DNA of 64,000 nucleotides from Persicimonas caeni. Its GTDB lineage: Bacteria > Myxococcota_A > Bradymonadia > Bradymonadales > Bradymonadaceae. A program made the translations under genes and the position numbers. The notes beneath the pieces are model-generated. The model was given only the letters and a program-made list of their open reading frames with translations, was not told where the DNA came from and did no database searches. The stretch lies in the NCBI RefSeq assembly GCF_006517175.1, contig NZ_CP041186.1, forward strand, positions 6,661,074 through 6,725,073, read 5' to 3'. This document shows, in pieces, positions 1 to 50,171 of the stretch; position 1 is the stretch's first letter, and every line of letters begins with the position of its first letter.

Positions 1-205
1 CGAGCGACGCCTGCTATTGAAGGAGTTAATATTGAAAGGCGGACGATACGCGGCGTTTGCGCGAGGCGGTGCGATGCGCCAATAGCCACGTGGCTGATTG
101 GCAAAACGACCGTCACGCGCAAACGTGTCTGATCGTCCGCCCCTCAATGGTAGTTCTACCTCAATAGGAGGTGTGTGATCCCTGCAGGGCGTTCGAATCG
201 CACAT
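1..205. repeat. Family A palindromic repeat, copy A1 (left end cut by window)
   Basis: This is the first copy of a roughly 200-bp near-palindrome seen again at 3507-3682 plus 5244-5279, 5854-5962 (half) and 5963-6180. The centre is CCACGTGG at 86-93. Matching inverted segments lie on both sides: GGGCGGAC/GTCCGCCC, CGTTTGCGCG/CGCGCAAACG and ATTGA/TCAAT. The outer end is the CCTGCAGGGCGTTCGA motif at about 181-196. This copy is the most diverged. The element is non-coding and could form a large cruciform or hairpin. It looks like a non-autonomous element related to the Y1 transposase at 5434. Confidence 0.8.
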
Positions 206-3506: not shown

Positions 3507-3682
3507 GCGCCCTGCAGGGCAGCAACGCCGGCTATTGAAGGAATTATTATTGAAGGGCGGACGAATTGCGGCGTTTGCGCGAGGCGGTGCGATTGGCCAA
3601 AAGCCACGTGGCTTATCTGCAGGACGACCGCCACGCGCAAACGTGTCTGGCCGTCCGCCCATCAATGGTAGTTCCACCTCAA
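3507..3682. repeat. Family A palindromic repeat, copy A2 (split by the IS)
   Basis: Left arm, centre (CCACGTGG at 3604-3611) and most of the right arm of a family A palindrome. It matches 5963-6180 closely up to the sequence CCACCTCAA and then breaks off. The missing outer end (TAGC...GGCGTG...CCTGCA.GGCGTTC) is found 1.56 kb away at 5244-5279. The copy was therefore interrupted by the intervening insertion. Confidence 0.85.
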
Positions 3683-3739
3683 ATGTCATGCTGTGCACTG
3701 ACGAGAGACGACAGCAGCGAGCGCGACTTGAAATGAAAG

Positions 3740-3818
3740 TGGGTCATCCCCTGAAATTGAAGTTGGAACGTGGTCCGCACGAGGCGGCCACCAGATTTCA
3801 CTCCAGGAGGATGACCCA
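3740..3818 (+). promoter_or_regulatory. Hairpin covering the transposase ribosome-binding site
   Basis: TGGGTCATCC (3740-3749) pairs with GGATGACCCA (3809-3818), which overlaps the GGAGG ribosome-binding site and the A of the ATG. TGAAAT (3752-3757) pairs with ATTTCA (3795-3800). The loop holds a further hairpin (TGG-T-CCGC at 3771-3778 with GCGGCCA at 3784-3790). A transcript entering from outside the element would fold and hide the start site, a usual safeguard of insertion sequences. It could alternatively be part of a left-end bridge RNA. Confidence 0.55.
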
Positions 3819-4888
3819 TGCGAAACTATAAGATCGACAACGATGTGATTGCAACGACGCGCAAACTGTGGATGGGAATCGACGCCCACAAGCGCACGCT
3901 GCATGTGACAGTCATCGACGATGACGGTGAGATGGTGCTCTCGGAGTCGCTGCCCCACGCCAAGGAGCATGTGGTCGGGCTGGTTCGTCGTCTCGAAGAC
4001 GCCGATTTCGTTGCTGTGTATGAAGCAGGACCCACTGGCTACAAGCTCTTGAAATGGCTCGAAGAGCTCGGCTGTGATGCGTTTATGGTTCCGCCGACAC
4101 ATGTGCGCCAGAAGAAGGGCGGAAAGAAGATCAAGACCGACGAGCGCGACAGCTACGATTTGGCCGAGCAGGCTCGTGCTGGCATGCTTCCGGCCGTTCA
4201 CGCGCTCGACGAGGATACGTACTGCGAGCGGCAGGTAGTGCGTACCCGGGGCCAGCTGGTCGAACACCGCAGCCAGCTCAAGGCTCAGATCAAGTCGCTG
4301 CTGCTGTTTCACGGCGTCTCGGCGCCGGACGATTTGAAGGCCAACTGGTCGAAGCGATTCATGCGCTGGCTCGAGGAGGGGCCGACCGGTGACGAGAATC
4401 TCGACCTAGCGATTGAGGCGCTGGTGGGCGTCATCTACAGCTTCGACAAGCAGATTAAACGGCTCGAGGGGCGACTTCGCCAGATGGAAGAGAGCCAAAA
4501 ATGGGCCGATGAAGCCGAGTTGTTGCGCAGCGTGCCGGGGATTGGCGCGCTGACCACGATGCTCCTTTTGCTCGAGCTCGGTGACGTGAGTCGTTTCGAT
4601 CGCTGCGAGGAGTTTTCGAGCTGGCTTGGGCTTGTGCCAGGCGAGTGGTCCAGTGGAGATGGGCAAAACAAGGGCTCAATCACGCGAGCGGGCAATAAAC
4701 GAGCGCGCTCAGCCCTGGTCGAGTCGAGCTGGACGCTGATCGGCAAAGACGCCGGGATGCGGGCAGTCTATGAGCGCATCAAAGCCAAGAGTGGCGCCGG
4801 TGTGGCGATCGTGGCGGTGGCGCGAAGGCTCGCGCTGGCGATACGTGCAATGCTTCGAGACCAAAAAAGTACGAGTACAACCCGATAA
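3818..4888 (+). CDS. IS110-family DEDD transposase/recombinase
   Basis: The 356-residue protein has the two-part IS110 layout. An N-terminal RuvC-like DEDD domain starts at MGIDAHKRTLHV (first catalytic Asp at residue 22) and continues through YEAGPTGY and KTDERDSYDL. After a coiled middle comes a Tnp_20 domain with SVPGIGALT, SSWLGLVPGEWSSG and GSITRAGNKRAR; the conserved serine of the last motif is Ser287. The ATG at 3818 has CCAGGAGG eight bases upstream. The reading frame is intact, so the element may be active. Family knowledge: the enzyme excises a circular intermediate and inserts it under guidance of an element-encoded bridge RNA. Confidence 0.95.
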   Translation: MRNYKIDNDVIATTRKLWMGIDAHKRTLHVTVIDDDGEMVLSESLPHAKEHVVGLVRRLEDADFVAVYEAGPTGYKLLKWLEELGCDAFMVPPTHVRQKKGGKKIKTDERDSYDLAEQARAGMLPAVHALDEDTYCERQVVRTRGQLVEHRSQLKAQIKSLLLFHGVSAPDDLKANWSKRFMRWLEEGPTGDENLDLAIEALVGVIYSFDKQIKRLEGRLRQMEESQKWADEAELLRSVPGIGALTTMLLLLELGDVSRFDRCEEFSSWLGLVPGEWSSGDGQNKGSITRAGNKRARSALVESSWTLIGKDAGMRAVYERIKAKSGAGVAIVAVARRLALAIRAMLRDQKSTSTTR

Positions 4889-5243
4889 CAGCCTAAAGAG
4901 AATCACCATCTGCTGAGTAGATCAACCGTTTGAACAAGCACTTGTAGATGAACCAAACGACAGAAATGGCAGCTTTGAGGTAGCGGGCATTGGCCATGCT
5001 CGCGAGGGACGACCGCGGCCTGCTATTCGTGCAGCCACAGGACTCACGCCCTCAAATGGCGGCGTCCCACATACCGTAAAAGACACAGGGTGCTAGGCGT
5101 CCATTGCGACGACCACGTATAGGAAAGAGAGCATGTCCTCGCTAACCGCGAGCCGCCACCAAATCGATTGCGAATCCGCAAGCTGCAAGGAGATCAATTC
5201 GACCGATTTTGCCAATCAGGGGACTTGATCACACACATAGGAA
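4889..5243 (+). ncRNA. Candidate bridge RNA in the IS right end
   Basis: A 355-nt non-coding stretch between the transposase stop and the element end. It holds several hairpins: CTCGC/GCGAG at 5138-5142 and 5148-5152; TTGCG/CGCAA at 5168-5172 and 5177-5181; and a long-range TTTGAGG (4974-4980) with CCTCAAA (5051-5057). TTGAGGT at 4975-4981 is the reverse complement of the left insertion flank ACCTCAA. TAGCGGGC at 4981-4988 equals the right flank of intact family A copies. IS1111-type elements carry their bridge RNA here. The exact ends and fold are not established. Confidence 0.4.
5225..5243 (+). promoter_or_regulatory. Right-end -35 element of a circle-junction promoter
   Basis: TTGATC at 5225-5230 lies 13 bases from the right end. 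If the element circularises through its AA core, the sequence CATGCT at 3687-3692 comes to lie exactly 17 bases downstream as a -10 box. Junction promoters of this kind are established for IS110 and other circularising elements. In the inserted form the half-promoters are separated. Confidence 0.45.
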
Positions 5244-5280
5244 TAGCAGGCGTGGGAGCCCTGCAAGGCGTTCAACTCGC
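5244..5280. repeat. Family A outer-end remnant (rest of copy A2)
   Basis: TAGCAGGCGTGGGAGCC followed by CTGCAAGGCGTTCAACTCGC matches the outer right end of the family A palindromes at 5935-5962 and 6146-6180. It is the half of copy A2 displaced by the insertion sequence. Confidence 0.75.
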
Positions 5281-5327: not shown

Positions 5328-5423
5328 GTCACGCAGAGTTTTCGCGTGGCGTGACGCAACGAATCGCAGAAATTGCCGAAAACCGTAGTGAGGAGTCGTA
5401 CAGGCAAACATTTCTCACTACGG
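5328..5423 (+). other. Two hairpins upstream of the Y1 transposase
   Basis: GTCACGC (5328-5334) pairs with GCGTGAC (5349-5355). CCGTAGTGAG (5383-5392) pairs perfectly with CTCACTACGG (5414-5423), ten bases before the start codon. Subterminal hairpins next to the gene are the recognition sites of IS200/IS605 Y1 transposases. The second hairpin is also well placed to limit translation. Roles are inferred. Confidence 0.5.
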
Positions 5424-5433
5424 GAGCGAACAC

Positions 5434-5853
5434 ATGAGACGCTTTTGGCAAATCTACGTTCATATCGTCTGGGCCACGAAAGGCCGCAGTCACATCATCA
5501 AGGGGCAACTCGAACGTCCCATGCACAGTGCGATTCGGGACAAAATGCGCGAATTGTCGATGGTGCCGGTCTGCGTGAACTCGGCGTGGAACCACACGCA
5601 TTCATTGGTGAGCTGGAATCCGTCCGTTTCAGTCGACGACGCTGTCGAGCAGTTCAAGGACGCCGCCGTCGAGAAGTGGAAGACGCTGCGTCAGAAGCGG
5701 GAGTTGGACGTTCCACTTCTGCAACTGCAAGACGGGTACTCCGCATTCTCGGTAAGTCCCAAGCACGTCGATTGGGTGAAAGACTACGTCGCGAAGCAAA
5801 AGAAGCGCCACAGCACCGGCAAGATTGTCGATGAGTGCGAGATCTGGACGTAG
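5434..5853 (+). CDS. tnpA: Y1 (HUH) transposase, IS200/RAYT type
   Basis: A 139-residue single-domain protein of the Y1_Tnp fold. It opens with IYVHIVWATKGR, carries the metal-binding His-x-His as H54-T55-H56 in NHTHSLV, and the DGYSAFSVSPKHVDW block. The presumed nucleophile is Tyr118 with Gln122 in DYVAKQKKRH. The ATG at 5434 follows GGGAGCG. The stop codon TAG (5851-5853) sits directly against the CCACGTGG centre of a half family A palindrome, so gene and repeat are physically fused. Family knowledge: such enzymes cleave and join single-stranded hairpin DNA. The neighbouring palindromes are its likely substrates, which is inference. Confidence 0.85.
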   Translation: MRRFWQIYVHIVWATKGRSHIIKGQLERPMHSAIRDKMRELSMVPVCVNSAWNHTHSLVSWNPSVSVDDAVEQFKDAAVEKWKTLRQKRELDVPLLQLQDGYSAFSVSPKHVDWVKDYVAKQKKRHSTGKIVDECEIWT

Positions 5854-5962
5854 CCACGTGGCTTGTCTGCAAAGCGATCCCCACGCGCAAACGTGTCTGG
5901 CCGTCCGCCCGTCAATGGTAGTTCCACGTCAATAGCGGGCGTGTGGGTCCTGCAGGGCGTTC
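5854..5962. repeat. Family A half-palindrome, copy A3
   Basis: Begins exactly at CCACGTGG (5854-5861), the palindrome centre, right after the Y1 transposase stop, and runs through the complete right arm to CCTGCAGGGCGTTCGATTC. The left arm is absent, as though replaced by the transposase gene. It shares its outer end with the next copy, so the two lie in tandem. Confidence 0.85.
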
Positions 5963-6180
5963 GATTCGCACGCCCTGCAGACAAGCAACGCCGGCTATTG
6001 AAGGAATTATTATTGAAGGGCGGACGATACGCGGCGTTTGCGCGAGGCGGTGCGATTGGCCAAAAGCCACGTGGCTTATCTGCAGGACGACCGCCTCGCG
6101 CAAACGTGTCTGGCCGTCCGCCCGTCAATGGTAGTTCCACGTCAATAGCGGGCGTGTGGGTCCTGCAGGGCGTTCGATTC
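5963..6180. repeat. Family A palindromic repeat, copy A4 (complete)
   Basis: The best full copy. Outer CGCCCTGCAG at 5971-5980 mirrors CCTGCAGGGCG at 6162-6172, and the centre CCACGTGG is at 6067-6074. Arms of about 95 bp match with few mismatches. It ends some 60 bp before the gnd start codon. Confidence 0.9.
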
Positions 6181-23558: not shown

Positions 23559-24521
23559 CTACCGGATGGATGGTGGCGGCTCACGACGTATGTCATGACT
23601 GCCGCCTACGCAGAATTGGTGGCCGGGTGGAATCGTGCCGTCGGGAAAGCTCACCTCTGACTTCCCTTTGCGCCACTTGTCTACGGCATCTCGATAGCGG
23701 TCGACGAGTAGGTGGCAGCTGTCGCGGTATGCAATGCGCTGCTCTAGGTCGCCGCCGTGACACAGGGGGCGCGGGGCTTTCTTGGGCTCTTTCGGGCGGT
23801 CGGTCCAGCTTGTGGCGAGCACTTTTTGGGGTCCAATACACGGTTTTTTGCGCCGCTTAGCTAACTCGCCTGCGTGCTCGTGGCATGTCTCGACAATCTT
23901 CTGGTGATACGCCTCGTCATCGAGGTCCTTCCACTGCGGAAGCTTGGCCATCTCGAGCGTGTAGCGCTCGGTGGCCAGTTCGATGAGCTCTGCTTCAGTC
24001 TTGCCTTCGTTCTTCTTTTTGCGCTTCTCCGCCCAGTACTTCTTTCGGTTGACCACCTCCGCCACCAGCGGCTTTCTGCTCGCGTGAATGTCCCATGAGC
24101 ATAGTCCTGGCCACTTCTTCGGATGGCGCACAAGGTCGGATTCGCACGGGTTGCAGACGATGTAGCGCAAGCGGTCGACCATCGCGTCGTCGTCCAGCAC
24201 CTTGATGGCTGTGTATCGGCGCTCCCAGAAAGTGCCAGTGCGATTACGTAGTTTGTTGATCTTCTTCGCGAGCTGGCTCTGAAAGTCGCGCATGAACAGG
24301 TGCATCTGCAGCGAGCGGCAGCGCGCCAGGAGGTGGAAGTGGTTGCTCATGAAGCAAAACGCAAAGATCTCGACGCCGTAGCGCCAGGCGTACTTGGCCA
24401 GGAGTCCCAGAATAATGCGGTTGACCTCCTCCTCGGGCAGTAGGGCGTATATCTGGTGCAAGGTGCGATTGCCCAATTCGTAGATGGCGTCCTTTTCCTG
24501 ATTTCGCAGCGGGTGTCCCAT
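23559..24521 (-). CDS. REP-associated tyrosine transposase (RAYT), long form
   Basis: 320 residues from ATG 24521, which has GGAGGAG upstream; the longer frame to 24668 has no ribosome-binding site. Residues 20-140 form the Y1_Tnp/TnpA_REP domain: His61 and His63 in FMSNHFHLLAR, then GTFWERRYTAIKV, and the presumed nucleophile Tyr120 in DRLRYIVCNP. The C-terminal 180 residues are Lys/Glu/Trp-rich (RKKYWAEKRKKKNEG) and longer than in typical RAYTs. The gene is bracketed by the palindrome GGTGTC-N-GACACC on both sides, the usual RAYT-REP arrangement. Confidence 0.88.
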   Translation of the reverse strand: MGHPLRNQEKDAIYELGNRTLHQIYALLPEEEVNRIILGLLAKYAWRYGVEIFAFCFMSNHFHLLARCRSLQMHLFMRDFQSQLAKKINKLRNRTGTFWERRYTAIKVLDDDAMVDRLRYIVCNPCESDLVRHPKKWPGLCSWDIHASRKPLVAEVVNRKKYWAEKRKKKNEGKTEAELIELATERYTLEMAKLPQWKDLDDEAYHQKIVETCHEHAGELAKRRKKPCIGPQKVLATSWTDRPKEPKKAPRPLCHGGDLEQRIAYRDSCHLLVDRYRDAVDKWRKGKSEVSFPDGTIPPGHQFCVGGSHDIRREPPPSIR

Positions 24522-24682
24522 TGGCTCGTCTCCTCCGTGAGATAAAGGTTCATCGGTAGCCCTCAATACGGTTTTCGGCAGAAGAGGCCGATTCGTTGCG
24601 TGATTTGGCAAAATTTGTTGTGCGGACGGGACGGGGTGGCGGCCGCAAGATCGCGCTGGCAGGCGCATGAGAGCTGGTCGAC

Positions 24683-50053: not shown

Positions 50054-50090
50054 GACGCGTTTGCGCGAGGCGGTCGTCTTGCTGATGAGC
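50054..50090. repeat. Family A fragment, copy A5
   Basis: GACGCGTTTGCGCGAGGCGG followed by TCGTCTTGCTGATGAGC matches the inner right arm of the family A palindrome in inverted orientation. The rest is absent. It lies in the 196-bp gap between the antiporter and VWA genes. Confidence 0.65.
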
Positions 50091-50171
50091 AACAATTTTA
50101 GATCCATCGCCGACCGCGCTCGTTTGCACCCATGACACGGAAACAAACCCCTGTTCATGTGGAGGCAGACG

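Follow-up and report, generated by a model that had tools for sequence, protein, structure and literature searches.

The architecture in which a Y1 HUH transposase gene is accompanied by its own palindromic repeats is covered by the RAYT/REPIN systems (PMC3116915, Bertels and Rainey 2011; PMC8266576, NAR 2021). According to the available passages of these two papers, a single-copy Y1 HUH gene (RAYT, or TnpA-REP) has its own palindromes both adjacent to it and dispersed, these palindromes form hairpins as inverted pairs, tandem clusters are located near the gene, and several enzymes have a family each. Why bacteria retain RAYT genes, which are single-copy and do not move themselves, is given as an open question in the available part of PMC3116915. 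TIRtrons, in which some of the long repeats overlap the gene at its 3' end ('3'ov'), are also already published (PMC3733652; Di Nocera 2013). The TIRYT gene is RAYT-like, and its long flanking repeats are unrelated between genes and are in some cases self-complementary and family-forming. The locus analyzed here is similar to both systems in these respects. It is located in a window of 64,000 nucleotides, which is the whole stretch of DNA analyzed, from Persicimonas caeni, a predatory member of Bradymonadales (PMC7188933, available passages). The palindrome-transposase pair of this locus belongs to a known architecture (RAYT/REPIN or TIRtron), and its unexpected part is a motif upstream of the gene. 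The features are listed in Table 1.

Table 1. Positions of the features in the window
Feature	Position	Strand	Basis or remark
Family A copy	1-199	+	its first 20 bp lie outside the window
Family A copy, right arm broken by IS110	3508-3682	+	
IS110-family element inserted in family A	3685-5246	+	approximate borders, judged against the 4.74-Mb copy (99%)
IS110-family transposase gene, 356 aa	3818-4888	+	part of the inserted element
Family A right-end remnant past IS110	5242-5273	+	from the interrupted copy
Promoter-like motif CGCAAC-N13-TGCCGAAAAC	5355-5383	+	common to all 26 Y1 genes; 84 exact genome sites
Possible 5' mRNA hairpin directly after the motif	5384-5422	+	CGTAGTGAG (5384-5392) with CTCACTACG (5414-5422)
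Y1 HUH transposase gene, 139 aa, RAYT/TIRYT-like	5434-5853	+	Pfam match, residues, structure search
Family A half copy, right arm	5852-5967	+	overlaps the stop codon
Family A full palindrome copy	5962-6180	+	
Second Y1 ORF, large (320-335 aa type, approximately)	23559-24668	-	true start downstream of the motif
Second promoter-like motif copy	24571-24600	-	
Family A fragment	50054-50093	-	

The Y1 gene and its palindrome

The 139-aa protein matches Pfam Y1_Tnp (PF01797) with an E value of 2e-15 and contains the catalytic set H54-T-H56 (the HUH pair), Y118 and Q122. H54, H56, Y118 and Q122 are invariant in the alignments of its relatives. These results agree with the initial annotation, in which the gene product was described as a 139-residue HUH enzyme. 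The AlphaFold2 model of the protein has a pLDDT of 84.8. The best PDB folds for this model are ISDra2 and IS608 TnpA, with RAYT 4er8 at rank 29 (E 4.9e-5), and the structure search does not separate the RAYT type from the IS200 type. The NCBIfam IS200/IS605 model scores 49.1 bits, under its cut-off of 55, and no RAYT model was matched among the NCBIfam models searched. The gene is single-copy, with the closest paralogue in the genome being 58% identical. No second copy of the gene plus arms, and no gene copy above 58% identity, was found genome-wide. Relatives of the enzyme (E <= 1e-8) are detected in 7 of 114 other genomes.

The stop codon of the gene is the TAG at 5851-5853. The family A match starts at 5852, which corresponds to query position 104, and the centre of symmetry of family A is located between query positions 109 and 110. 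Therefore, the stop codon overlaps the central AGCCACGTGGCT of the half copy. The half copy is 94% identical to the full copy, and the two overlap by 6 bp at their junction (5962-5967). The coordinates 5851-5853, 5852-5967 and 5962-6180 confirm the earlier description of a transposase stop at the centre of a copy that lacks its left arm and is followed by a full copy in tandem. Further copies or fragments nearby and at 50054, which had been noticed as well, are seen at 1-199, at 3508-3682 with 5242-5273, and at 50054-50093. Aligned over 219 bp with its reverse complement, the full copy is 72% identical, and its calculated folding energy is -141.5 kcal/mol.

In the upstream flank of the Y1 gene, the IS110-family element splits a family A copy into a part at 3508-3682 and a remainder at 5242-5273. 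The 99% copy of this element, at genome positions 4,744,816-4,745,868, is likewise located within a palindromic repeat, and both copies are inserted at an CAAATAGC-type (AATAGC-type) site. Insertion of IS110-family elements in REPs is known, for example for ISPpu9 (PMC8450116, available passages). The window element and its 99% copy are similar to ISPpu9, as described there, in that they lie in palindromic repeats, but they differ from it in that the IS110 member and the palindrome are others.

The genome (8.05 Mb; a single contig of 8,047,206 bases, of which the window covers 6,661,074-6,725,073) contains 80 family A matches on both strands. These matches collapse to 47 places, a few of which are pieces of one broken copy. 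Tandem clusters are present at 304-311 kb and 6647-6667 kb. The half-plus-full arrangement is also present at 310,629-310,972, beside an unrelated lipoprotein gene and without a Y1 gene, suggesting that this arrangement is a general feature of the tandem arrays. The copies beside the Y1 gene are most similar to the reference (94-95%), the reference itself being a gene-adjacent copy. A count of family A genome-wide and in relatives had been suggested, with abundance in genomes without the enzyme as the opposing case. The count gives 47 places in this genome and none in 114 related genomes, among which there is no other member of the genus, in a first look that scored at most six candidates per genome and could miss diverged copies; such abundance without the enzyme is not seen in these relatives.

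Eighteen of the 19 near-full copies (18 listed and the window-start copy) were aligned, with L055, which is 19 bases shorter, being omitted. An exact GTAG is present in 9 of the 18 aligned copies; it forms part of the long stem and does not precede a short hairpin. Covariation is weak, because both sides are changed in only 2 of 42 pairs, and gives no support for selection at the RNA level. The window copy had raised the possibility of a strand asymmetry of the hairpin, with G.U pairs retained on one strand; this was rejected, because the top strand is more stable in 11 of 18 copies and the mean energies are equal. The length of family A had been regarded as special, being far beyond that of ordinary REPs. 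This view is not retained, because REPIN/BIME hairpins and the published long-repeat TIRtrons cover such a length; two inverted REP-like cores with a spacer give a long hairpin (REPIN/BIME), so that a unit of approximately 219 bp is within known REP biology.

Repeats beside other Y1 genes

A flank repeat is counted here wherever the two flanks share a repeat, direct or inverted, that scores 40 bits or more. Among the small Y1 loci (6 from this genome and 10 from other genomes), 14 of 16 have one. Such a repeat is detected at 4 of 138 control places, which are evenly spaced over the rest of the window, and at neither of two large Y1 genes. The two small Y1 loci without it are those of G006, which is near a contig end, and G003. 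The sequences of the flank repeats differ from locus to locus. The higher-scoring repeat is direct at 8 and inverted at 6 of the 14 positive loci. The flank repeat of the window is direct, and its score of 40.1 bits barely passes the threshold, because the upstream copy is displaced by the IS110-family element.

Each of the four closest paralogues in the genome has a distinct palindrome family. The 668-, 4646- and 1381-kb paralogues have families of their own; counted on both strands of the genome, the 668-kb family has 62 matches and the 4646-kb family 136. The 668-kb paralogue (58% identical) also has the gene-half-full order, with another palindrome family, whereas the 4646- and 1381-kb paralogues have palindromes on both sides. 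At the 668-kb gene (L067:1995-2504), the palindrome encodes the last residues and the stop codon, which is the TAG of GTAG. The core of this family, approximately 36 bp, is also present alone and in tandem, in steps of approximately 63 bp, at genome positions 1,265,232, 2,486,981, 7,846,792 and 7,576,804.

The distribution of family A (0 of 114 other genomes), that of the enzyme relatives (7 of 114) and the locus-specific repeats fit private enzyme-repeat pairs. It may be inferred from the sequences that family A is a non-autonomous MITE/REPIN-like family linked to the 139-aa enzyme. The initial annotation had proposed MITE-like derivatives mobilized by this enzyme. A MITE/REPIN-like distribution is supported indirectly by the absence from 114 relatives, the 14 of 16 loci with flank repeats and the 94-95% identity beside the gene. 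Mobilization by the enzyme is putative, and no second gene-plus-arms copy was found.

A motif upstream of Y1 genes and other genes

The motif was first seen in six leaders, those of the four paralogues and of two other small Y1 genes, as CGCAAC-N-TGYCGAAAAC. The pattern CGCAACN{12,16}TGYCGAAAAC gives 84 exact matches in the genome, and the reversed pattern gives none. It is present 5' of all 26 Y1 genes, on the same strand and within 500 bp, with an expectation of approximately 0.003 per gene. Because the motif was derived from 6 of these 26 genes, the remaining 20 represent new tests. The distance from the motif to the Y1 domain match is 81-182 bp, except for one of 389 bp. Clustered at 50% identity, the 26 proteins fall into 7 groups, one with 17 members, indicating that the motif is not one duplicated leader. 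The second Y1 ORF of the window belongs to this 17-member paralogue group, two tested members of which are without flank repeats. In 16 of the 26 genes, 33-51 nt separate the motif from the predicted start, an earlier in-frame start having been taken by the script for the other 10; in the window gene, the motif is approximately 50 nt 5' of the start codon. It does not precede the IS110 gene at any of six IS110-family loci.

The spacing of the two boxes is 14 or 13 nt, at 46 and 27 of 73 distinct sites, respectively. The second box is GCCGAAAA in this genome, with a CGAYAATRA variant in relatives. The conserved stretch extends past the motif as cgTAaTGaGGGg, and the hairpin pairing after the motif scores 5.04, as compared with 4.33 +/- 0.14 for shuffled partners (best stem, 52 sites). 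The second box recognized by sigma-28, the FliA -10 box, is GCCGATAA-like, and the second box of the motif resembles it. The genome contains a FliA/WhiG sigma gene at 3,128,843-3,129,487, which scores 208.5 bits against a curated cut-off of 189.6. The two boxes, their near-fixed spacing, the position close to the start, the conserved start region and the hairpin pairing are read most simply as the signs of a promoter.

Fifty-eight motif sites do not precede Y1 genes. Of these, 23 (of 84 in total) precede a dispersed, noncoding-looking repeat of approximately 0.8-0.9 kb, and the other 35 were scanned for downstream ORFs, yielding 40 ORFs. The motif precedes the genes for SctV, SctR, DprA and YifB/ComM, all of which score above the NCBIfam cut-offs. 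It also precedes the genes for ComF and an HHH/ComEA-like lipoprotein, which are assigned by Pfam, with NCBIfam comEA under its cut-off, and a gene for a FliK-like protein, which is under the cut-off as well. Other genes behind the motif encode YraN, an Eco57I-type methylase, two 23S_IVP proteins and one weak Y1 protein (under the cut-off). No family is assigned at 12 of the 35 scanned sites, and no other transposase family is found among the ORFs after these sites. The motif is also seen 5' of three DUF559 and two PDDEXK_3 nuclease-like genes (L126, L145, L174, L151, L171). In the noncoding-looking repeat, 23 copies of which are present (L125, L131, L134, L136, L137, L141, L142, L144 and 15 further loci), the motif is located near the 5' end. 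The copies may represent a family of RNA genes that is controlled in the same way.

In 57 genomes, the exact motif gives 23 matches outside this genome, as compared with 5 for the reversed motif. Fifteen of these 23 matches (1 reversed) are in a single relative of the same family (G008; 5.0 Mb, single contig), for which loci were obtained for 11 of the 15 sites. The ORFs behind the motif in G008 encode DprA, ComF, HHH/ComEA-like, FHIPEP/SctV, FliK-like and Y1 proteins. Four more ORFs resemble, by eye, motif-linked ORFs of this genome, and one site is without a clear ORF. The motif precedes YraN in G003 and a FliP/SctR protein gene in G007. The looser pattern CGCAAN{16,18}CGAYAATRA gives 22 sites in 24 genomes, as compared with 3 for its reverse. 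By eye, eight of these sites lead to SctR, ComF, Y1 and small conserved ORFs, and the rest do not obviously do so. A relaxed motif is present before only 3 of 10 Y1 genes of other genomes, and this number is not independent, because three Y1 leaders from other genomes suggested the relaxed pattern, which is therefore partly modelled on them.

Interpretation and comparison with known systems

The Y1 gene is probably of the RAYT/TIRYT type, with its own family A that is spread in trans by the enzyme, and with a sigma-28-like promoter that is shared with type III and transformation genes. It is called RAYT/TIRYT-like, and is not placed in one subfamily, because of the length of the unit and because no more than 9 of 18 copies have an exact GTAG. 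According to this proposal, the gene would encode a single-copy single-strand transposase flanked by family A, the unit of which would be an inverted pair of a REP-like core forming a hairpin of approximately 200 nt. As judged from its distribution, family A would have been spread in trans by the action of this enzyme, or of an ancestral form, on folded single strands of DNA; local multiplication into tandem arrays would have followed. A promoter resembling those of sigma-28 (FliA/WhiG), at 5355-5383, would drive the gene, and the transcript would start a few bases past GCCGAAAAC/TGTCGAAAAC at the Y1, sctV and dprA genes. This promoter type would be common to every Y1 gene and to the SctV, SctR, DprA, ComF, ComM and ComEA-like genes, so that the Y1 enzymes would be made together with secretion and DNA-uptake proteins. 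This last step is proposed from the sigma-type motif together with the up-regulation of five type III export-apparatus genes of bradymonabacteria during predation, as reported in the available passages of PMC7460792. In short, the motif may be taken to be a promoter that a FliA/WhiG-type sigma factor reads, and the enzyme may be taken to mobilize family A.

Two other origins of family A are conceivable. The gene and its arms may be an autonomous IS of the IS200/IS605 type, with family A representing its internal-deletion MITEs. In the window and at the 668-, 4646- and 1381-kb loci, the gene lies between same-strand direct repeats, as would be expected of the ends of an element, and ISDra2 and IS608 TnpA are the nearest solved folds. 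Nevertheless, this origin is improbable, because the small Y1 proteins are each distinct, with 58% identity for the closest, because the lack of a second gene-plus-arms copy weakens the IS reading, and because the flanks are inverted in several relatives. Alternatively, the palindromes may multiply independently of the enzyme, through slippage, recombination or a different transposase, with the Y1 gene simply located within an array, as the half-plus-full copy without a Y1 gene at 310 kb and the tandem clusters at 304-311 and 6647-6667 kb would allow. This origin is unlikely, because the flank repeats are concentrated at small Y1 loci (14 of 16, as compared with 4 of 138 controls) and a different palindrome family is present at each of the four closest paralogues.

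The leader motif may not be a promoter but an operator, to which a shared repressor or activator would bind, or a cis element of some other kind that is kept near Y1, secretion and uptake genes. The conservation that continues past the motif (cgTAaTGaGGGg), where hairpin pairing is above that of shuffles, is consistent with such an element, and the sigma reading depends on likeness to the FliA consensus. However, the box spacing is nearly fixed (14 or 13 nt, 46 + 27 of 73), and the motif is placed directionally 5' of genes, its distance to the predicted start being 33-51 nt for 16 of 26 Y1 genes. An operator or other cis element is therefore a possible, but rather doubtful, reading of the motif, and the sigma-28-like promoter is preferred.

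It is conceivable, although only tentatively proposed, that the Y1 transposases, both RAYT-like and larger ones, share one regulon with type III secretion and DNA uptake and are made when foreign single-stranded DNA enters, the incoming DNA being either the substrate for palindrome jumps or a substrate that the enzymes would process to the benefit of the host. If this is true, RAYT-like enzymes gain a concrete time and place of action. The apparent joint control of Y1, type III and transformation genes makes a host role, or the timing of REPIN spread, testable. A literature search, which covered listings of papers available without subscription, gave no listed paper linking Y1 transposases to the control of competence or secretion. 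With its long palindromes and several enzyme-palindrome pairs in one genome, this lineage is added to those in which the RAYT/TIRtron pattern is seen.

The locus differs from RAYT/REP systems, as far as these are described in the available passages of PMC3116915 and PMC8266576, in that the unit is approximately 219 bp, as compared with 20-50 nt for REPs, and no short bulged hairpin is identified in it. In addition, REP is a hairpin preceded by GTAG, whereas GTAG is located inside the stem here, and in only half of the aligned copies. As in REPINs, described in the same passages, the unit is a dispersed hairpin built of two inverted REP-like cores and a spacer (72% over 219 bp, 18 near-full copies). 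Further marks of the RAYT type are binding and cleavage of the single-stranded repeat but not of its inverse, and those of REPINs are doublets conserved better than singlets and excision intermediates. TIRtron repeats are described as terminal inverted (PMC3733652); the higher-scoring repeat at the small Y1 loci is direct at 8 and inverted at 6 of 14 loci. The modelled fold and the catalytic residues of the Y1 protein are similar to those of the IS200/IS605 TnpA proteins (ISDra2, IS608), but the locus differs from IS200/IS605 in that there are no repeated gene-plus-ends copies and in that the NCBIfam score is 49.1 against 55 bits. The predation genes of PMC7460792 are similar to those found here in that they encode the type III export apparatus, of which SctV and SctR have the motif. 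Transposases, a shared motif and co-regulated DNA-uptake genes are absent from the available passages of that paper.
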